DNA of 64,000 nt from Thysanoteuthis rhombus (Eukaryota; Mollusca; Cephalopoda; Oegopsida; Thysanoteuthidae), in NCBI GenBank assembly GCA_963457665.1, contig OY735213.1:50991785-51055784 (forward strand), read 5' to 3'. The notes beneath the pieces were generated by a model. It ran no database searches and was not told the origin of the DNA. It was given only the letters and a program-made list of their open reading frames with translations. This document shows positions 4,607-61,653 of this stretch, in pieces (the first letter of the stretch is position 1; each line of letters opens with the position of its first letter). A program made the translations under genes and the position numbers.

Positions 4607-5021
4607 GCGTGTTCATGTTTTATGACATTCATATGTATATAACTGTGTACCTGGACTTTGCTCAGCCCTAACTGTCCATAATGAAAAACTTGAAATTTTG
4701 TACACACATTCCCCGGCAATTAGTAGGGAAAACAGATTTTTTCAAGATTTCCCTACACAATGAGTTTTAGTGGAGGGGGTCAATTTACAATGTAAGTTTA
4801 TGCAAAATTTGTCCTTTAGTTTGAGTCAAGCAGTATTTACACTTGTTTTATTGATAATTTGGACTTTTAGTGATTGCAGACAAAAAGAGACAAGAGAAAA
4901 TTACATATTCATTGATTTCCTATTTCTTCAATTTTTCATTAATCATCCCTAACATAGCATGCTGCCAAAAGAGGTTGGTCACATGATGGTGTTTTTTGAG
5001 TGACTAACCATACCTGCCTCT
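4607..5021 (+). mobile_element. Family A variant A2, copy 1
   Basis: The 5' part (GACTTTGCTCAGCCCTAACT, AAAACTTGAAATTTTGTACA) is unlike other family A copies but matches 7650-7800. The 3' part is ordinary family A: GGTCAATTTACAATGTAAGT, CATGCTGCCAAAAGAGG, GTTGGTCACATGATGGTG and GAGTGACTAACCATACCTG. It follows the Tc1 pseudogene directly. Non-coding. Confidence 0.7.
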
Positions 5022-5071
5022 TTTTTAAAATCTTATTTCTTAGCTTTTTCAACTACCCAAATAATCCATTT

Positions 5072-5691: not shown

Positions 5692-6180
5692 GAAACCGTC
5701 AACCAAAACTGTCACCAAAACTATCGGCATAAGTTTCCCCAGTTCTTAAATTGGTCTGGCTGGCTGGCTGGCTGGCTGGCTATGTATGTATCATATGTGC
5801 ATGCTGCTCAGATGGATCTGGAACTATGTGAATAAAAAACAGTTTCAAAATTCCCCCTCTAAATACTTTTTTAAAGGAATTGTTCAGTTTGCAATGTAAG
5901 TTTATGGTAAATTGATCCCTTATTTGTGTCTGCTTGTTCTTCAAATAGGTTTTTTGTGGGGGATTCAATTTACAATGTAAGTTCATACCAAATTAGTCAC
6001 TGCTTGTTTTTTTTTTGTGAATACAAACTTTTTAGTGATACAAAAACAAAATGCAAGAGTAGTAACTTATTCATTGATCACCCCTTATTGCAATATTTTG
6101 ATTGATCTCCCCTAACATGGCATGCTGCCAAAAGACATTTGTGACATAACAGTTCCTATTGAGTGACTAACCTGACCTGT
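5692..6180 (+). mobile_element. Family A repeat, copy 1
   Basis: Starts GAAACCGTCAACCAAAACTG and contains the (GGCT)n block at 5758-5782. The block TTCAGTTTGCAATGTAAGTT is partly duplicated within the copy (5885 and 5968). Ends GAGTGACTAACCTGACCTGT. Confidence 0.8.
5758..5782. repeat. (GGCT)n short tandem repeat
   Basis: Five to six tetranucleotide units that belong to the family A consensus (CTGGCTGGCTATGTATGT), expanded here. Confidence 0.85.
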
Positions 6181-7052: not shown

Positions 7053-7447
7053 GAAACCATCAAACAAAACTGTCACCAACACAGGTTTCTTTCGGTTTTA
7101 CAAGTTAATATATGTATGACACATACAGGCCACACAAATGGAGCAAGAAGGCTGAAAATGTAAACATTTACTCTTTATTATGTCTGAAATTAACATTTTT
7201 TTGTTTTGTTTTTTCAAAATTTCCCCTCTAAATATCCTTTTAGACGGGGGTTCAGTTTGCAATCAAAGTCTCTGCTGAATCGATCCCTATTTTGTGTCCA
7301 CTTGTTCTTCAAAAAGGTAAAAGAAGTAACTTATCCATTATTGATACCCCCAAGTTTAATTTTTCTAATTGATCACCCTTGACACAGCATGCTGCCAGAA
7401 GACTTTGATCACGTGACAGTTTCTATTGGATGACTAACAAGACCTGT
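7053..7447 (+). mobile_element. Family A repeat, copy 2
   Basis: Starts GAAACCATCAAACAAAACTG, shares GTTCAGTTTGCAATCAAAGT and GACACAGCATGCTGCC, and ends GGATGACTAACAAGACCTGT. The (GGCT)n block is lost. Confidence 0.8.
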
Positions 7448-7649
7448 CTTACTTATTTATGTTTTACGATGAGAAAAATAAATATATAAGAACAAAAGTT
7501 AATGAGAATTTTCTTTGCCAGTTGAATCTCTTTGTTTCATGACAACAAAATATTATTTAATGGACAGATATCTGAAAAATTTAACTTCTCATCAAGGAAT
7601 CATCTTGTAAATCCCCACTACCCACAACAGGACAGTTTTATCACTTTCT

Positions 7650-8669: not shown

Positions 8670-9905
8670 GTCCATGTCTTGGTGGGTAGAGTTTTTGGTA
8701 AAATTCTTAGGCGCGTTTGACAATCCTGTCTTTGTCTGTTGTTAGGTCTGTGTTTTATTTGTGAATGCTAGTTATTTCTTTCTGTCCTATACTGAGAGTT
8801 TTGTTTATAATTTTGAAGCCCCGACATTTTCCAAGAGTTGTTTCGATGATTGCTGTCGTGTAACTTCTTTTGTCTTCTCTTAGTTTCTTTTTGATTGTTT
8901 CTTTCAGTTCGGTTTCCTCTAATTTTCCCTTTGTTGTTGTCAGTGGCTTGAGGTTCCTGCGCTTTTTAATGAGTTTCATCATTTCGTCTGTGATTTTACT
9001 AATGGTTTGTTTGCTCCTCGGTTTAAATATAGTGACAGTTTCTATTAGAGAGGTTGTTATTTTGTTATGGAGTTCGTTGATATTGGTCTTTATGTTGGTT
9101 TTGGTGTTGGTCTCTTCGGTAAGGATTTTATATCTATTGTTCAATTCTAGCTTGAAGGATCAGGTGAGCTCTGTTAGTACGTTTAGTTGTTGCGGTTTGG
9201 TGTGGAATATTTTTCTTCGTTCTCCATTGGTGTTTACTTGCATCTTACATTTTACTATTCTGTGGTCACTTCCTATGTTTACTTAGTTTATGACTTGAAT
9301 GTCTTTGAAGCTGTCGTTTTTGTCCGATAGGGTATAGTCTATTTCGTTCTTCGTTTCGTGGTTGGGGCTCTTTCAGGTCCATTTTCTGTTGGGCTTCTTC
9401 TCAAAGTATCTATTCATGTTTTTGGTGTCGTTTGCGGTTGCAAAGTTAACAAGATCTTCACCTCTCTCGTTCCGTTCTTTGTATCCGAACTTGCCAACAC
9501 CATGTTCATTTCCTTGTCCCCCACGATGACTTTGAAGTATTTTTAGTATCTTGTAGTAGGGAGTTCAAGTCATCATAAAAGTTGTCTATTTCTTCTTTGG
9601 TTGGTTGCCAAGTGGAAGTGTTGACTTGGATGATGTACAATTTGTACCTCTTTGCGGTCTGAAAGAGCTTTGAAGCCTACCGCATTGTCTTTGAGGTCTT
9701 TATTGATGAGAAAGCCTTATCCACTTTGTTCTACTTTCTCTCTTCCGTAGCTGTAAAGAAGATGTTTGCTTTTCAATTCTGTTAGTCCTTTCCCTGATCT
9801 TCTCATTTCGTTAATGTCAATAATGTCCCATTGGATGTTTTTGATTTCATTTTCTAGATCGGTTAGCTGAGAGTATGTTGAGACTGCTCTGACATTGTAG
9901 GTGCT
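8670..9905 (-). pseudogene. RTE-like retrotransposon, EEP endonuclease and linker
   Basis: On the minus strand the EEP-type (APE-like) endonuclease begins at about 9905: ISTYNVRAVSTYSQ, LENEIKNIQWDII, INEMRRSGKG, then GFLINKDLKDN, RYKLYIIQVNTSTW and YFKVIVGDKEMNM. These match the N-terminal endonuclease blocks of RTE-type non-LTR elements (YNVRTL; WDIIGLSEVRR; VIVMGDFN). The linker before the reverse transcriptase follows (8755-9144: DEMMKLIKKRRN, KLREDKRSYTTAIIE, CRGFKIINKTLS) and overlaps the start of the copy at 18.83 kb. A TAA replaces a Val/Ile codon before GFLINK, and two frameshifts lie near 9600 and 9540. The Asp-Phe-Asn of the catalytic GDFN block reads GDKE. Inactive. Confidence 0.8.
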
Positions 9906-14805: not shown

Positions 14806-15033
14806 AAAACTGGTTATCCACTCAATGGAAACCGTCACGTGAACGACATCTTTTGGCAGCCAGCGGTGTTGGGGGTGATCAATTGAAAAATTGTATAAAA
14901 GGAATGATCAATGAATAAGTTACTCCTCTCGCCTTTTGTTGGGCGGTGATCACTAAAAAAGTCCGATTTTTTTTTCAAGCGGAAACGTTGCTGAAATATA
15001 ACCTAAGGGTCCAATTCAACATAAACTGAAGTT

Positions 15034-23270: not shown

Positions 23271-23359
23271 CCAGCTAATAAAACCAGCTTAAAAACTGAT
23301 GGAATCTAATCTTGTCTGAATTTTATTTGACAAAGTGTATTAATCATTGTGTGTGATGA

Positions 23360-23495
23360 GTTCGGACTATTTTCCTCGTCTATGTGTTCATTTATTCACA
23401 ACATTTCGGCCGTGTAACACCCGACGAAAGCCGGAGGGCACACAACTGAAACTTTGAAAATGAATGAAAACATAGACGAGGAAAATAGTCCGAAC
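23360..23495. ncRNA. Palindrome with degenerate hammerhead-like core
   Basis: Arms 23360-23415 and 23440-23495 are inverted repeats; the outer 26 bases (GTTCGGACTATTTTCCTCGT and on) are perfect. Between them CCGACGAAAGCCGG and GAAAC (23448-23452) have the order of a hammerhead core with U-to-C in CUGACGA. The minus-strand arm reads CGGCCGAAATGTTGTG, the 3' part of such a motif. Probably a Penelope-like element end. Confidence 0.45.
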
Positions 23496-24599
23496 ACATT
23501 ATACATAGTAAAGAAATATATCTTGGCGGTTTTGGAGGACAGTTCCTAACAAGTCGAGTTATTAATCAAGAAGAAAATATCTTGAGTTCCCATATCAAAT
23601 TCAAGCCAACCATCCTGTACACTTGAATGAATACAATTAGTATTGAATTTCTCACTTCTGCTTTCATCCTGATAATTAGAAAAGTGTCCATTTAAGAATA
23701 TTTCATCTCGTTCATAGTCTACCATTGTTGTATCTAATAAAATTACATTCAATGTGTTTACTATGTATTGATGTCTTATTTAATTAATACACTATCGATT
23801 ATGTAGGTAACGCCCTGTCATCCCTCAAAGAAATAATGGATTAGTCTATCGTCGTGATGAAGAAAGGGCGGTAGGAGAGGATGGTTAGAAAGACAATGGA
23901 AGCAAATAATGAGACATCCCAAATATTCATGAAAAAAATGGAACATTTAATGGAAAATGGAATATTTATGATATCACCAGTGAACATTTTGTTTTGACCA
24001 TACTTTGGGGGGACGTTGTTTTTTTTGTGTGTGTGTTTTTTTTTCACCTGGAATCATACTCAGATAACCCTTTCTCAATTTTTTTTTTCATCTTACCTTA
24101 TATTCTGAAAATAACTCTTTTTGAATTTCATTGGTAAGTGTCTTCATATTCTATTCACACCTTTTTTAAAAAAAGTTTCACTTTAAAGTGAGGGGATATT
24201 GGTGGGAGATGTGGCTCTGGATTGCTTGGATTAAAATCAAATTCAATTAAAATTGATTGGATTGCTATGTAAGTAATGAAAAATAAATAGAGAAATAAAT
24301 AGAAAAATGAATGCAGTTGGATTCTGTGGACATAGATTTGAGATAGGGGTAACCTGAGTCAAAGTATATTTTTTATAATATATATAGTATGAAAAATACG
24401 CATATGCATTTGTTTCTATGTGTATCACTTTTTATCATTCTTCTGATTTCCATCAAATTTTAATCAAGACCCGTTTCCCCAAAAGAGCCTGTAACATGTC
24501 ACTGCAATTAATATGGGTGACAATTTTTCTTTGCATCAGAAAATTTCCTCCTACAGGTTATTTGTTCGATGTAACATAGTTCACTGCTTAAATGCGTCG
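23496..24599. other. Unassigned AT-rich DNA
   Basis: Short open frames on the minus strand (for example 23546-23752, 68 codons) have no family motif. No shared repeat seen. Confidence 0.4.
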
Positions 24600-27239: not shown

Positions 27240-28230
27240 ACTCTCCAAGGTGTATACCCTGTATACGTCAAAGTACTGCAACATATATACAATCACAGCA
27301 ACCCCTATCAGGCTACATAAAGACTCTGAACCCTTCTGGTTCCGAAAAGAAAAAAGACAGTGATACCAGCTCTCCCAAATTCTTCACAGCCTGCCTCAAG
27401 ATGATCTGCTATAACCTGCACTGGGAGAATAGAGGAATCAAAATAGACGGCGAATATTTGAGCAACCCCAAATTTGATTCGTCCTTTTCGCAGAGAACCT
27501 CCAAATAATGCTAAATGAACTAAATGAAGAAAGCAAAAGAGTTGACCTACACATGTACTTCAGTAAATCAAAAGTCATGTGCAACAATCATATCGAGAAT
27601 AAAGACATAACTGTCAAAATCGAAGATGCAAAACTGGGAAAAGTAGACCAATTCATCTACCAAGGACAACGAATCTCTATGAAACCCACAAAAGAAGAAG
27701 AAACCAAGCGAAGAATCACTCTAGGATGGCAAGCCTTCGGCAGAGCAAGCTCAACCTTCAAAAACAAGACGATCCCAATAAACCTAAAAAGAAGAGTATA
27801 CAACCAATGCATCCTCCTAATAATCACTTATGGAGCTGAAACATGGAACTTAACCAAGAGACAGACCTGCAAACTGAAAGGGGTGCAACAATTCATGAGA
27901 TAATCATGCTCAACCTCACATGGAGAGATCACAAGACACAATATATCAGGAAGAAAACGGGGGTCTGAGACATCACAGAATCTATTAGGAAACTCAAATG
28001 GCAATGGGCTGGTCATGTTGTAAGAGTGTAACACAACCGATGGACATCATGAATCACAACATGGATCCCCAGAGACCATATGCGAAACCAAGGCCGACAA
28101 AATACAAGATGAAGAGATTAATTAGACAAATTCATAAAATAATGGCTCCCCGACGCCCATGACAGAGAAATGTGGCGGATCCTGGGGAAGGTTTATGTCC
28201 AACAACGACTGTTAAATGACTGGTGATGAG
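27240..28230 (+). pseudogene. RTE-like retrotransposon, RT palm edge to 3' end
   Basis: Plus strand from VYVKVLQHIY (27.26 kb). The RQGD block is damaged. The best open frame (27508-27903) reads MLNELNEESKRVDLHM, then ENKDITVKIEDAKLGKVDQF, RRITLGWQAFGRASSTF, RRVYNQCILLIITYGAETWN. It then degenerates through the HVVRV block to a 3' end at GTCCAACAACGACTGTTAAA and GGTGATGAG. The FADD box is deleted (KFDSSFSQ). This is the copy closest to the inferred consensus in its C-terminal half. Confidence 0.8.
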
Positions 28231-29149: not shown

Positions 29150-29466
29150 TGCGTAAACATTTACTCCTTATTTTGTCACGAAAAAGTTGGAAAATTCAAT
29201 TCCCTCAGATAAGTTTTTTAATGGGGAGTTTAATTTATAATTTAAGTTTATGCTAAACTGGTCTCTAAGTTTTTGTCCAACAACATTCGCGCTTGTTTAT
29301 TCTTTTAAATACGGACTTTTCAGCGATCACTACCCAACAAAGGGCGAGAGAAGCAACTTATTCATTGACCAGCCCTTTTTATAATTATTTTCATATGATG
29401 ACACCATACAGCCAAAAGAGGTTGGTCATGTGACGGTTTCTTTTTGGTGACTAACCAGACCTGTTT
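28825..29466 (+). mobile_element. Family A repeat, copy 6 (with microsatellites)
   Basis: Starts GAATCCATCAAACAACACTG. A (TC)n-(TA)n-(GA)n-(TG)n cluster (29020-29149) sits at the GGCT/TATGTATG position. Then CGTAAACATTTACTCCTTAT, CACTACCCAACAAAGGGCGA, GAGGTTGGTCATGTGACGG and GTGACTAACCAGACCTGTTT. The most complete copy. Confidence 0.85.
29020..29149. repeat. (TC)n-(TA)n-(GA)n-(TG)n cluster
   Basis: Four short dinucleotide blocks inside family A copy 6; the TC and GA parts are mutually complementary and can form a hairpin around the TA part. Confidence 0.95.
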
Positions 29467-29689
29467 TATTTTTTGTTATCCCTTGTATTCTTAGCAATAT
29501 TCATTGACCTTTAATAAAATACACACTTGTGAGTTTGGCTCGGAAGAAGGGCAACAGAGTAACATGTGACAAGGTTGAGATTTCAACGAACTCTTGAAGT
29601 ATTCAAACTCCCTGTTAACGCAGGTAGCTTACTGACTTTTTCTACTTTACACAGTCATTATCATTGAAGATTAACTAGCCCGTTCGAAA

Positions 29690-31520: not shown

Positions 31521-31774
31521 TCATTTCATCGAGGTTCTTTTTGCTCTCGTTCTTGCTACGGTAACTCCAGTTTCAGAGTTTTACAATCGTGCTCTAGTTT
31601 CTTGGTGTGTTTTTTTTTTTTTTTTTTTTTGTTTTGTTTTTTGTTTCTTTCCTAAATCAAAAATATCTTCAATATCTTGTTTCGGCCAACAGTTTTTGAA
31701 CGACAAATTTCCTAATAAAGATGGGTTTGTATATCTCTGAATTTTTGAGATGAGGTATTATTATTATTTCTATT
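31521..31774. other. Unassigned, with poly-T at 31612-31632
   Basis: T-rich spacer before the hammerhead palindrome. Confidence 0.5.
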
Positions 31775-31904
31775 GATATTCGGACCAATCCCATCTTGGT
31801 TGTTTTTCATACAACGTTTCGGCCGTTGTACTGATGAAGGCCGTAGAGTACAACGGCCGAAACGTTGCATGAAAAACAACCAAGATGAGGATGATCCGAA
31901 TATC
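31775..31904 (+). ncRNA. Hammerhead-like ribozyme core inside a 58-bp-arm palindrome
   Basis: Arms 31775-31832 and 31847-31904 are inverted repeats (53 of 58 positions) with a 14-base centre. On the plus strand CTGATGA (31831-31837), an extra A, GGCCG (31839-31843) with CGGCC (31854-31858) as stem II, and GAAAC (31859-31863) form the conserved hammerhead core. GTTG then C instead of U weakens the minimal stem III; the minus-strand arm keeps GAAACGTTGTATG. Known minimal hammerheads of this form lie in terminal repeats of Penelope-like retroelements. No Penelope protein is seen nearby. Whether it cleaves cannot be judged. Confidence 0.55.
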
Positions 31905-31918
31905 AATAAAAATAAGAT

Positions 31919-32328
31919 GGGTTTGGTTAGTCACTCAATAGAAACTGCCACTTGACCATCGAGTTTCGGCAGTAAGCCCTGTTAGGGGTGATCAATTAAA
32001 AATTGGAAAAAGGAATGCTCAATTAATGAGTTACTTCTTTCTCCCTTTGTTGGATCACTGAAAAGTCTTGATTAAAAAAAAACATGGTCGCTGGCAGACA
32101 CAAACTAAATCACCAATTTGAGATAACCTTACATTGTAAATAGTCCCCTGAAAAAAGTTAATTCAAAAAAACAAAAAAAAATGAGTAAATATTTAAATTT
32201 TCAACCCCCTAGCTCCATTGGTGCGGCCCATACGCGTAACACATATATACTATTCCAGCCAGGTAGAATCACTTAACAACTGAAGATATCTATGTTGACT
32301 ATGTTGACACTTTTGGCTGATAGCTTTT
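31919..32328 (-). mobile_element. Family A repeat, copy 7 (reverse)
   Basis: Begins GTTTGGTTAGTCACTCAATA, then GATCAATTAAAAATTGG, GAGTTACTTCTTTCTCCC, and ends in CCAGCCAGGTAGAATCACTT and ACTGAAGATATCTATGTTGA. Nearly full length. It abuts the hammerhead palindrome. Confidence 0.8.
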
Positions 32329-34892: not shown

Positions 34893-35248
34893 GAACAGGT
34901 CTAGTTAGTGACTCGAAAGAAACTGTCAGACGAACGACGTCTTTTGGTAGTATGTCGGGTTGGAGGTGATCAATTAAAAACTTGGGAAAACAGGTGATAA
35001 ATGAATGAGTGATTTCTCTTTAGTTGTGATCACTAGAAAATGTCCAAGTTTTCTAAAAACAAGCGTTAACTCAAACGGACACAAAATGAGGGATCAATTT
35101 AGCATCAATTCACATCGTACACTGAACACTGATTAAAATCCAATTTGGTGGGGGGGTATTCAAAAAACGCTTTTCTCGACATGATAAGAAGTCAGAATCA
35201 TTAAAAAACTGATGTTAAACAATGTAGACTGTTTTGGATGACGGTTTC
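34893..35248 (-). mobile_element. Family A repeat, copy 8 (reverse)
   Basis: AACAGGTCTAGTTAGTGACT, AAAGAAACTGTCAGACGAAC, GTGATCACTAGAAAATGTCC and the closing GATGACGGTTTCC mark both ends. The GGCT block is deleted. Confidence 0.75.
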
Positions 35249-35935
35249 CAACATGAAAAATGAGAACAACCTCGAAAAATACAAGAGGTTAATATTTCTT
35301 TTGCAAGCACAAAAGTTTTTAACATTGAGTGAGCATAGGTGTGAAACTTGATAAATTTACAGATTTACAAACCTTCCCTACACATACAGAAATATGGGTT
35401 AACAACTTTGCAATTGTAATCTTCATTTTTTTTTTTCAAATAGTGTTCTGTTTGAGTTGAAATGCTCAAACAGTTATTCATACTTGACGATGTGTTATTT
35501 TTCTTTTTTTTTTTTTGACAGCAACAAAAAAAAGATTATAAAACGGGTAGGTAGACAAATCAATTTTTTTAATTAAATTAATACAGGTTTTTTTTATTAT
35601 ATGTGCAATAAACACCTCTTACCCTCTCCGTTTTGAAAATTGAAAAAAAAAACAGCAACTGTTTACGTAGTTTCATCTTTGATAGAGGAAGGAGGAGTAA
35701 GACGTCTCGATAGAGAGAGGAGGAGACAGAGGGAGATTGAAATACGACCTACAACTCAAGAATCATACTAAAATTCGATCATCAATCAGGAGCTAATACA
35801 AATGCAGCAGCCACAAGAAGTGATAATTCTAAAATGAGTATGAATGAGAAATCACTCCCCCCCCCCCCCAACTCAAACAACTTTTGGAAGGTGATTTTCA
35901 AAATCTAACCTGCTAAAAACGTGCTAGGGATCCAA
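35249..35935. other. Unassigned, poly-C run at 35857-35869
   Basis: AT-rich with homopolymer runs; no repeat or protein motif recognised. Confidence 0.4.
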
Positions 35936-37977: not shown

Positions 37978-38497
37978 TCATCATCATCATCATCATTCTT
38001 TTAACGTCCGTCGTTAGGCAAAGACCTTCCCCAGGATTCGCTGCACTTCTCCATCACGGGCGGCGCAGAGCCAGTACTTTCTGAATTTGTCCTGCTTGTC
38101 TCTCTTGTCTCTTCATTCTGCCAGCCTCGGTTGTGCATGATGTAATCTCTGGAGATCCATGTCGTGAGTCGCGATGTCCATCAGTTGTCCACCATTCTTG
38201 CAACATGGCCAGCCCACCGCCATTTGAGATTTTTAATGGATTCTATGATATCCCTGACTCTTGTCTTTTCCCCAGATGTACTATGCTGTCTTGTGGTCTC
38301 TCCATGTGAGGCCCAGCATAATTCTTTCATGTGCATGTTGCATGGTTCTCAATTTGCAGATCTGTCTATTGGTTAGGTTCCATGTTTCAGCTCCATAAGT
38401 GACTACTGGGAGAATGCATTGGTTGTACACCCTTCTTTTTAGGATTAATGGGATCTTCTTATTTTTGAAGGTTGGGCTTGCTCTGCCAAAGGCTCGC
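37978..38497 (-). pseudogene. RTE-like C-terminal coding and 3' end
   Basis: Plus strand starts with the (CAT)n tail (37978-37997), then CTTTTAACGTCCGTCGTTAG. The minus-strand frame reads RAFGRASPTFKNKKIPL, RRVYNQCILPVVTYGAETWN, NRQICKLRTMQHAHERIM and LTWRDHKTA. The KWQW-GHVARM block follows out of frame near 38210. 5'-truncated at about 38497; the host sequence AGCTT on each side may be a short target duplication. Confidence 0.8.
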
Positions 38498-38790
38498 CAT
38501 AGCTTAGTCTGGCAACAAAGATGGGACATGGAGTTAAGATCCAACATGCTACTGGAGTAATGGCTTGCGAGATTAGCTGTTTCACAGTGCGGCAAACCAC
38601 GTGGACATTCATTGAAGATGTTCGTTTGCTCTACGTTGGGTGATAAATGATTGTTTTCAAAGTCATACGTCCGTATCTTCACTCTAGAAATTCATTCACG
38701 AGATTTAAACAGCAAATTCAAGGAGCTAATAAAATCCAATAGGAAAACACCATAAATATTTTCCAGAGTGGTACCTTTTGGCCAGGACAT
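38498..38790. other. Unassigned
   Basis: The minus frame that runs out of the RTE piece continues here (NHLSPNVEQTNIFNECPRG), with no recognised family. Confidence 0.35.
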
Positions 38791-42814: not shown

Positions 42815-43255
42815 ATTAAGAAATGGATAAATGATAATAAACTGCGTTATATTGAAAATCTTATATGAAATGATCTCCGGTTATTACACAGTGAATGTCT
42901 CATTTAGCCGAGACAACGTAAATAGAATAAACAATCAAAGAAAATGGGACTGCTGCAAGAATCGAACCTGCGATCGATAGAATATTCGCTTCAACGTAGC
43001 ATTGCTCTTACCATTGAGCTAAACAGCTGCCAGTAATATAAAGGCTCAAATAACTACTTTAAACCAAAAATGATTATTTTGGTTATTCATGGTCTATATC
43101 TGTTCTATCAATATGATAATTATGTTATTAAGAAATGGATATATGATCCGACAAAATTATTGTAAATTGTGATATATTATATTGAAACTCTTGTTTGAGA
43201 TGATCTCCCATTGTTACACAGAGAATGTGTCATTTGGCTTAGGCAACTGACCTAC
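42815..43255 (-). mobile_element. SINE family S3, copy 1, with duplicated flank
   Basis: The minus strand of 43033-42945 forms a near cloverleaf: D arm GCTC-8-GAGC, T arm GCAGG-TTCGATT-CTTGC, acceptor pairing 6 of 7 with wobbles, anticodon loop ACGTTGA (GUU, Asn-like, with the invariant U33 lost) and an overlong variable region. The blocks TTAAGAAATGGATAAATGAT, GATGATCTCC and GTTACACAG-GAATGT flank it on both sides (42817-42912 and 43128-43250). 53040-53372 is a relative. A SINE rather than a functional tRNA(Asn). Confidence 0.55.
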
Positions 43256-43448: not shown

Positions 43449-43904
43449 GAAACTGTCACCCAAAACTGTCACCCAAAACTGTCAACATAAGTTTCTTCAG
43501 TTTTCAAGTTGGTCAGGCTGGCTGGCTCGCTATCTATGTCGTCAATGGAGCTGGAAAACTGAAAATCTAAATATTTATTCCTTATTATACCTAGAAAAAA
43601 TGTTTTTTTAACCATCTACCCATTGGTTTTTCAGTATGATGGGGTTTTATTTACAATGTGATTCTATGCTAAATTGTTCCCTTGGTATGTTTCCGGCAAC
43701 ATTAACGTTTGTTTTGTTTTGTTTTGTTTTGTTTTAAATTTGACCTTTTTAATAATCACCACCCAACGAGATGCAATATAAGTAACCTATTCCAATTTTC
43801 CATTATTTTTTTCCATTTCAAATTGATTACCCCCAACACGACATGCCATGCTGCCAAAAGATGTTGGTCACGTGACAGTTTCCGTTGAGTGACTAACCGG
43901 ACCT
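43449..43904 (+). mobile_element. Family A repeat, copy 9
   Basis: Starts GAAACTGTCACCCAAAACTG (unit ACCCAAAACTGTC doubled), has GGTCAGGCTGGCTGGC, a (GTTTT)n run at 43711-43735, CATGCTGCCAAAAGATG, GTTGGTCACGTGACAG and GAGTGACTAACCGGACC. Near complete. Confidence 0.85.
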
Positions 43905-44540
43905 TTTTTTTTTTTCTCCCTCATTCTGTGAAGCCTATTAACGAGAAGTGGTCGAGAAAAGGGGTTGAGGAATAATGACGGAGCTGAATGATATTGGAAG
44001 GGGATCTGGTTGAGGAAAAAAAGAAGAAAAAAAAAGAATGGAAAGCGTGAAGCTGGTTGAAAAGTAGCCGCACGGAATTCAAGACCTTTTACAAAAGTGG
44101 CATTTTTTCTCATCTCAGTGATTTACCCGTTTTGACGGCAATCGACTAAAAAACTCCGTGATTTTTTTTTAACAGGTCCAGCGTTGCCCTATGATAAAGG
44201 AAAGTGGGGGTTCGCTGGTCGGTTGCACTTTGTGGGAACCATATTAGCAATGGCTAAGAGAGGAGAAGCATTTTAAAAGTGCTCAGAAAAAAAATATCTC
44301 AAAAAATGAACAATTTCCATTATATTGGAAGTATTCAATAATATCCGTACCTCGCAAAAATGAATGACCGTAGCCCGAAGATGAGCAAGAATTAATTATC
44401 TTTAAAAAAAAAAAAAAAAAGACACCAGCACAAAATTTGGGCACTGTTAGTCCGAAATGACCATAGAGACCGGAAAAAAGCACTTTTTTTAAAAGGACAT
44501 TTTTATTGATGCTTAGTGGTATATTCATGTTAATTTTCAT
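43905..44540. other. Unassigned AT-rich DNA
   Basis: Homopolymer A and T runs; no shared repeat or family motif. Confidence 0.4.
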
Positions 44541-46335: not shown

Positions 46336-46794
46336 GTCAGACACAACGTCACAAGTGAAGCATATGGTAAGGATCGAACTCACAAGTATTGTTGACATTT
46401 TTCTCTTGAGAGCTTTTACCCAAATTCATAAAATCGCTTTTTAGGTTGCCGATACCTCTGCTAAATTGTACTGATATCTTTTTTGAAAAGTGTTTTTATG
46501 AATTCAGGTAAAAGCTCTGAAGAAAAAATATTCACCCAAATACAGTAAATGATTAGTAGTTCGAGACAATACATTCAATTTTCTGAAGTAACCCTTTGTC
46601 ATGTGGCAACCCTTACCTATTAAGAGAGCAATTGTAACTGTCAGACGATTTTCGTTACATGAATCATAGTAAACGATAACTGTAAATCGTTGTAAACACA
46701 GAGATCCAATTTCTCCCTTCAGATAAGAGCCCTCGACTGGCATCTTGAATAAATTTATACAATTTAAACTCTTCAAGTCCACCATCCCCAGAAA
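46336..46794. other. Unassigned
   Basis: A B-box-like GAGTTCGATCC on the minus strand at 46374-46384 lacks a convincing A-box. Otherwise nothing recognised. Confidence 0.35.
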
Positions 46795-55754: not shown

Positions 55755-56105
55755 GAATTGATAATGCGTCCAGGCTGTGCAGAAGGAGCTAGAGGGCTGA
55801 AATTTCCAACATTTACTCCTTATGTCTCAAAAGATGCATTTTTCGAACCCCATAGGATATCTGTGAGGCGTTTAATTTGTAGTGTAAGTTTGCACTAAAT
55901 TGATCCCGAGTTTGTGCCAGCATTCATGCTTGTTCTTTGAAAATTCAGACATCCTTAGTGATCACTGCCTAACAAAAGGCGAAAAAGTAACTCTTTCACT
56001 GATCACTTCTTTTCCAAATTTTTTTCATTGATCACCCCTAACACAACAGGCTACCAAAAGACAGTGGTCACGTGATGGTACTATTGAATGATCAACCAGA
56101 CCAGT
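55755..56105 (+). mobile_element. Family A repeat, copy 13 (5' end missing)
   Basis: GGAGCTAGAGGGCTGAAATT, GTGATCACTGCCTAACAAAA, AGTGGTCACGTGATGG and GAATGATCAACCAGACC. Same direction as copy 12, 400 bases apart, with the SINE between. Confidence 0.75.
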
Positions 56106-61182: not shown

Positions 61183-61653
61183 GAAACCGTCAACCGAAAT
61201 TATATACCAAATCTGTCATAGGTTTTTAAGTTTTTGAATGATTCTGCCCGTCTAGTTTTCTATCTATCTATCTATTTATCTATCTATGTACAGTGTATGG
61301 AGGCCGTACCAATGGAGCTAGAGGGCTTAAAGTTTAAGCATTTATTCCTCATGATGTCAATAAAAAACTTTTTTGCTTTCACCCCTCACCCCCCAAAATT
61401 AGCTTTCAGTGTGGTTTAATTTACAATGTGAGTTTACGCTAAATTGATCCCTTATTTTTTTGTCCGACAGCTTTCACACTTGTTTTTCGTTTCTAAATAA
61501 GGATTTTTTGTGATCGCTGCTCATCAAGAAAACAAGAGAAGTAACTCATACATTGATCCCCTTTTTATCCAAATTTTTAATTGATCGTCCCCAACACAGT
61601 ACTCGGTGAAAACTGTCACGTGACACTTTCTATTGCGTGACTAACCAGATCTA
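61183..61653 (+). mobile_element. Family A repeat, copy 14
   Basis: GAAACCGTCAACCGAAATTA, (TCTA)n at 61259-61288 at the TATGTATG spot, TTTAATTTACAATGTGAGTT, GTCACGTGACACTTTC and GCGTGACTAACCAGATC. Confidence 0.85.

Follow-up and report, generated by a model that had tools for sequence, protein, structure and literature searches.

A Palindrome with Hammerhead Letters in Thysanoteuthis rhombus as a Probable Head-to-Head Insertion of Penelope-Like Element Ends

Introduction

Within a stretch of 64,000 nucleotides of the Thysanoteuthis rhombus genome (hereafter the window), the letters of a hammerhead ribozyme lie inside a long inverted repeat, which raises the question of whether this palindrome is a working ribozyme, a unit that moves by itself, or the product of an insertion. 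An earlier note, made from the letters alone, placed a hammerhead-like ribozyme at the centre of the palindrome and offered two origins: terminal repeats standing head to head, minimal hammerheads being known from those of Penelope-like elements (PLEs), or a retrozyme-like unit that moves independently. How PLEs insert is still open, and the later steps are yet to be validated (PMC11167929). In this article, the palindrome (locus A) is read as very probably a dead-on-arrival insertion of two 5'-truncated PLE ends lying head to head, and dozens of insertion products with readable ends, duplications and junctions are described from the same genome.

The Palindrome and Its Letters

The hammerhead-order letters were found exactly where they had been described, at 31831–31863 on the plus strand: CTGATGA at 31831–31837, the stem II strands GGCCG at 31839–31843 and CGGCC at 31854–31858, and GAAAC at 31859–31863. 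The arm count of 53/58 (31775–31832 against 31847–31904) is likewise exact, and the inverted repeat is longer than had been given, covering 31764–31832 and 31847–31915 (69 nt, 91%). On folding, both strands form one long hairpin (−96 and −106 kcal/mol), which is beyond chance, with z-scores of −19 and −23 and none of 200 shuffles equalling it on either strand. The best score of Rfam microRNA models (MIR7533, MIR2646 and others) in 31650–32050 was 76.8 bits against a gathering threshold of 230, and a microRNA precursor was rejected because such models answer to the hairpin shape and their scores lie far under the thresholds.

The hammerhead letters by themselves are weak evidence, and a loose form of the pattern also turns up in 10 of 100 shuffled windows. 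A stem-checking hammerhead descriptor missed the window motif because of the extra A between CTGATGA and GGCCG, and it gives matches in 45 of 200 Markov windows. Of the two outcomes that the earlier note had named as refuting, the lack of a covariance hit did occur: the Rfam hammerhead families gave no match in the 64-kb window at gathering and none in 31650–32050 at E up to 10. Pattern scans for the hammerhead core returned 0 and 1 match in viral contigs and 1 in genome contigs, and these two outside matches were set aside because by eye they look like chance occurrences in microbial coding DNA.

Locus A as an Insertion

The palindrome belongs to an insert of 184 bp (31730–31913) between exact 12-bp target-site duplications, the parts of which are as follows (strand given where assigned).

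31718–31729, target-site duplication, left copy, AAGATGGGTTTG, an exact repeat
31730–31765, minus strand, 36-nt tail, on the inverted PLE-end copy only; the same end (q109–122) stands on one copy in 45/46 sister loci
31766–31832, minus strand, inverted 5'-truncated copy of the PLE terminal end, 61/67 identical to the direct copy
31831–31913, plus strand, direct 5'-truncated copy of the PLE terminal end, overlapping the inverted copy by CT (31831–31832) at the head-to-head junction
31831–31866, plus strand, hammerhead remnant (CTGATGA, extra A, GGCCG/CGGCC stem II, GAAAC, GTT), the upstream strand of helix I being absent
31914–31925, target-site duplication, right copy, AAGATGGGTTTG, an exact repeat and the start of the interrupted interspersed repeat

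The inner end of the direct copy carries extra sequence, consisting of CTGATGA and the 5' strand of stem II. The insert has no open reading frame (ORF), and a search for a tandem direct repeat at this locus found the head-to-head pair only. When the flanks of locus A are joined, the resulting site aligns at the expected place with nine diverged copies of the interrupted repeat in the window. This interspersed repeat has about ten diverged copies in the window, at the 5' start of one of which locus A is placed:

31914–32085, 14811–14942, 6005–6172, 29300–29473, 4844–5026
55971–56102, 61537–61647, 34898–35040, 43780–43915, 7362–7454

Several other features of the window were recorded. Pfam gave nothing over its cut-off for ten window ORFs; open frames at 8755–9159 (−), 27478–27903 (+) and 38281–38691 (−) resemble pieces of RTE-type LINE protein by eye, with no Pfam match over the cut-off. 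A tRNA-like sequence at 42947–43028 (−) scores 35.1 bits in Rfam, over the threshold, with no call from ARAGORN, and is possibly the head of a tRNA-derived SINE. A further inverted repeat at 46399–46441 and 46486–46528 (43 nt, 86%, with a 44-nt spacer) gave no match to the PLE-end profile.

A second insertion, older than that at locus A and termed locus B, was first traced from a weak BLAST match (E 0.026).

23309–23316, duplication, left copy, 8 nt, with one mismatch
23317–23519, 203-bp older insert, a related PLE end in head-to-head arrangement, with arms at 23350–23415 and 23440–23505
23520–23527, duplication, right copy

The arms of locus B match at 54/66 positions, and its inverted side again has the longer outer end. 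An 8-nt duplication with one mismatch is weak evidence alone; the joined flanks, which align across the join with 43513–43464 and 35204–35253, add support. The flanks of locus B also match other copies of the interspersed repeat piecewise. By eye, one reading frame is kept after the hammerhead, reading MKNNQDEDDPNINKN in locus A and MNENIDEENSPNTLYIVKKY in locus B, the other copy of locus B being without the ATG.

Identity of the Element

About 270 nt upstream of the hammerhead are common to the longer copies, including a tRNA-like stretch, with an open frame further upstream. In the copy at L056, a 385-aa open frame runs into the terminal end and matches the reverse transcriptase (RT) family RVT_1 with E 1.7e-7 and 31.6 bits against a cut-off of 29.6. 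NCBIfam assigns this ORF to group II intron RT at 5.3e-9, a match far under its cut-off, and comparison with solved structures places group II intron-like RTs best (E 0.004), telomerase appearing at E 0.6–0.9. Canonical PLEs carry a GIY-YIG endonuclease, and by eye the ORF has a stretch VYS...YTGET...R..EH that resembles this motif; Pfam at E up to 10 gave no GIY-YIG match in the ORF. The terminal traits of PLEs are present in the inverted arrangement, the 36-nt tail and the 12-bp duplication, and 42/46 sister loci are alike in this respect. The RT, the terminal end, the tail, the inverted arrangement and the hammerhead together identify a PLE. Of the two origins offered earlier, head-to-head terminal repeats thus held up, in the form of a pair of PLE ends within one 12-bp duplication, the end following the RT-coding ORF in longer copies. 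The element is of a known kind with a known general architecture and is a clean new example of it.

The tRNA-like segment lies between the ORF and the hammerhead (L041:3214–3283 and, for example, also L066:1695–1770). Rfam scored it as tRNA at 29.4 bits against 29 in L066, the sole match at gathering among 20 loci, and at 26.7 and 24.5 bits in L041 and L043; ARAGORN found no tRNA in 16 loci, and the stretch folds no better than shuffles. The segment possibly represents either an internal Pol III promoter or a remnant of an old tRNA-SINE. In the second sample described below it is spanned by the main match at each of the 40 scored places. A tRNA-headed SINE was rejected because the copies continue upstream into the RT-coding frame. 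A fixed 5' end was also dropped: 32/40 of the matches in that sample start at query position 5, but this merely reflects the truncation of the query, L041, at that point.

Sister Insertions in the Same Genome

Two samples of related loci were drawn from the same genome (2.73 Gb, 514 contigs). Sample 1 was obtained with 31700–31980 as the query, the best 40 of 1742 candidates being examined, with the window included; sample 2 was obtained with a tail-less 363-nt stretch of L041, the best 40 of 3849 candidates being scored and 30 examined. Since only the best candidates were taken, neither sample is a census, and sample 1 is biased to palindromes by its query.

Related palindromes, whose absence was the other refuting outcome named in the earlier note, were found: head-to-head pairs occur in 36/40 loci of sample 1. 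The remaining four (L037, L038, L044 and L048) have one copy only, no partner being seen within the stretch examined, with a short opposite-sense piece discerned by eye in L037 and L038. In sample 2 a partner copy is present in 19/30 loci, one of which, L050, is the L041 locus again, and was not seen within the stretch examined in 11/30. The pairs usually have a duplication of their own, scoring at least 9 in 31/36 pairs of sample 1 against 2.2% of 319 mispairings and in 16/19 pairs of sample 2 against 2.3% of 342 mispairings. The samples yield 54 distinct pairs, 46 of which have a duplication score of at least 9 (L015, L021, L028, L035, L046, L064, L070 and L075 being dropped); duplication lengths range from 9 to 18 bp across sister loci, and insert lengths across the 46 loci from 161 to 1592 bp.

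The ends of the two copies differ in a regular manner. In 42/46 loci one end falls at q110–123 and its partner at q73–92, with medians of q119 and q83. The exceptions, given as long/short end, are L022 (114/96), L030 (116/104), L052 (94/83) and L076 (109/85); the short ends of L022 and L030 are shifted, and L052 has the full tail on neither side. Insertions with two tails number 0 among the 46 loci with a clear duplication, and exactly one tail is present in 18/19 pairs of sample 2 despite its tail-less query. The tailed copy at L067:901–1264 is odd in that five additional units of about 73 nt follow one another in tandem up to the tail site (also L076:2188–2250), as if the RT had restarted repeatedly at that site or slippage had occurred later.

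At the target, AC precedes the duplication in 13/46 loci and GT follows it in 17/46, against a background of about 5% each, with both in 6/46. Where the last letter of the element is A, the duplication edges can be placed only to within a base or two. Because this AC/GT signature is symmetric, the target does not obviously account for the difference between the two starts.

The Hammerhead in the Window and in Its Relatives

The window motif is made credible by its relatives, which retain it. Longer copies read GATAC-CTGACGA ... GAAAC-GTT-GTATG, and 20/30 copies have the full motif (core, GAAAC-GTT and a helix I of 4 bp), in which stem II again has an extra A at its foot. Rfam detected no hammerhead in relatives, either in 9 loci at E up to 1 or in 20 loci at gathering. 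A cut after GTA was considered and dropped, since the helix I pairing ATAC/GTAT in longer copies fits a cut after GTT with no helix III nucleotides.

That the hammerhead is active at locus A and processes a local transcript is extremely unlikely. The plus strand retains intact core letters, stem II and GAAAC-GTT, so that the core placed at the centre of the palindrome by the earlier note is indeed present; against activity, helix I has 0 bp in the window copy compared with 4 bp in 20/20 full-motif copies of the 30, stem II has the extra A at its foot, a fold compatible with the hammerhead is less favourable than the hairpin by 26 kcal/mol, and no Rfam hammerhead family matches either the window or 31650–32050. 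The motif in the window is a broken remnant and most likely no working ribozyme.

Two stem-loops were compared between loci. A covarying tail stem-loop, seen by eye between loci A and B, was dropped because its 3' strand in B sits in the target-site duplication. A hairpin GATGAGG/CCTCATC in the fold of L037 has a counterpart GACGAGG/CTTTGTC in B by eye, and a hairpin common to the two is suggestive only.

Origin of the Palindromes and Mechanism of Insertion

A retrozyme-like or MITE-like palindrome that moves and is copied as one piece would account for two sets of loci with a common junction, one made up of locus A, L014 and L015 and the other of L018 and L026, although the duplications at these sites differ. 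These shared junctions, which may reflect a hot spot or a re-mobilised palindrome, leave a small door open. Among the junction-sharing loci, however, the informative sites group within a locus in 7 cases, left with left in 1 and crossed in 1, which do not favour a moving palindrome and are too few to settle the matter. At most sister sites the junctions and lengths differ, so that the palindromes seem to arise anew at insertion. Over 630 locus pairs, which are not independent of one another, sequence changes unite the two arms of a locus at 656 sites, put left arms together at 73 and give a crossed grouping at 59, and the 65 comparable columns of loci A and B give 14, 0 and 0, respectively. 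Overall identity between arms tells less than these grouping columns: the two copies of B agree at 62/83 positions, no better than one between-locus pair (49/65). Grouping by locus suggests that the palindromes formed at insertion, both copies coming from one source lineage. A MITE or foldback DNA transposon would be a fixed unit with a duplication of fixed length, but here the junctions vary and the duplications range as described; metazoan retrozymes are direct tandem repeats with a type I hammerhead, and here a head-to-head pair is found. The independently moving unit of the earlier note is therefore highly improbable.

Fold-back self-priming, in which one cDNA (or antisense RNA) folds and is copied back into a palindrome, as PMC3846280 infers for rotifer Penelope, agrees with the palindromes at the head-to-head junctions, and 6/36 pairs of sample 1 have a tailed copy that exceeds its partner at both ends and could have served as the template. 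In the other 30/36 pairs the relation is reciprocal, with the tail on one copy and the tail-less copy extending further 5' than the tailed one; since each copy then holds sequence that the other lacks, simple fold-back copying is disfavoured there. Moreover, the short end is sharp, and folding back would need trimming to the same place each time. Fold-back copying is accordingly considered improbable, and priming from both cut strands fits the loci better: taken together, the insertion products favour two primed target strands over simple fold-back self-priming.

Under two-strand priming, an endonuclease would cut both target strands about 12–16 bp apart, leaving 3' overhangs, and a PLE RNA would be reverse-transcribed from each 3' end, with the tail site as the start in one case and an earlier site in the other. 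Both RTs would stop early, at locus A within the hammerhead, and the two cDNA 3' ends would join head to head over a base or two, a palindrome being the expected outcome when both cDNAs stop within the same short stretch. Joining of the cDNAs by microhomology is weakly supported, junction overlaps of at least 2 nt occurring in 16/36 pairs against 22% in simulation (p 0.006), with overlaps of at least 3 nt not significant and gaps in 11/36 pairs. Further points that weigh against this model are the loci in which no partner was seen, the exceptional ends of L022, L030 and L052, the absent GIY-YIG match, the joint occurrence of AC and GT in only 6/46 loci, and the two shared junctions. Both cDNAs at locus A read past the expected hammerhead cut site, q36, so the template was probably uncleaved RNA. 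In sample 1, 36/36 tail-less and 32/36 tailed copies do so (L024 starts exactly at q37, and L028, L032 and L033 later), and uncleaved RNA probably served as the template for most of these copies as well.

Locus A itself is an ordinary dead copy. The collection of products suggests that the two start sites act as a complementary pair rather than as options, which is worth following and can be tested in the existing in vitro system. To a more general model we give an even chance, namely that PLE integration is normally a two-primer process in which a symmetric AC^...^GT cut frees two 3' ends, one extended from the tail start and the other from a start some 36 nt further upstream, each on an RNA of its own. 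Which start is used would be set by the RNA–protein complex and not by the target, head-to-head joining of first-strand cDNAs would replace ordinary second-strand synthesis, and palindromes would be the shortest products. No statement on a complementary pairing of the two start sites was found in a partial search of the literature, an absence that proves little.

Comparison with Known Systems

One close counterpart is Poseidon PAc from a lizard, Anolis carolinensis. This PLE cuts both strands and extends them, begins reverse transcription 111–118 nt into the ORF and has two start sites, between which lies a tail of 30–40 bp; its hammerhead mutants still insert (PMC11167929). The element described here is similar in having a hammerhead at the ORF start and two RT start sites separated by the tail. 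Counted from the A that follows CTGATG, its long end is at about 113 nt, which, the lineages being different, agrees only roughly with the distance in PAc. The systems differ in the cutting motif, ATT in PAc and AC...GT flanks here, and in the use of the starts: PAc in vitro shows no difference between strands in start site, whereas single insertions here use one of each. A minimal hammerhead adjoining the ORF start is of the PLE type according to PMC7761336.

In the rotifer Adineta vaga, as PMC3846280 describes them, the Penelope elements Pen2a, Pen2 and Pen3a have an inverted next to a direct terminal repeat, duplications of 8–10 bp and an optional 31-bp tail on one inverted repeat, the terminal repeat reaching the first ORF codons and palindromes occurring at inverted junctions. 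On that description, the present loci share the inverted and direct ends, the short duplication, the tail on one copy, the end that reaches the ORF start and the junction palindromes. The rotifer repeats frame an ORF or a captured gene, whereas the insert at locus A consists only of two truncated ends within a 12-bp duplication; self-priming is inferred there, whereas the loci here fit two-strand priming better. Metazoan non-LTR retrozymes (PMC7229834) are direct tandem repeats of 150–450 bp with type I hammerheads; they resemble the present units in being small and non-coding in animal genomes, but locus A is a non-tandem product of PLE insertion.
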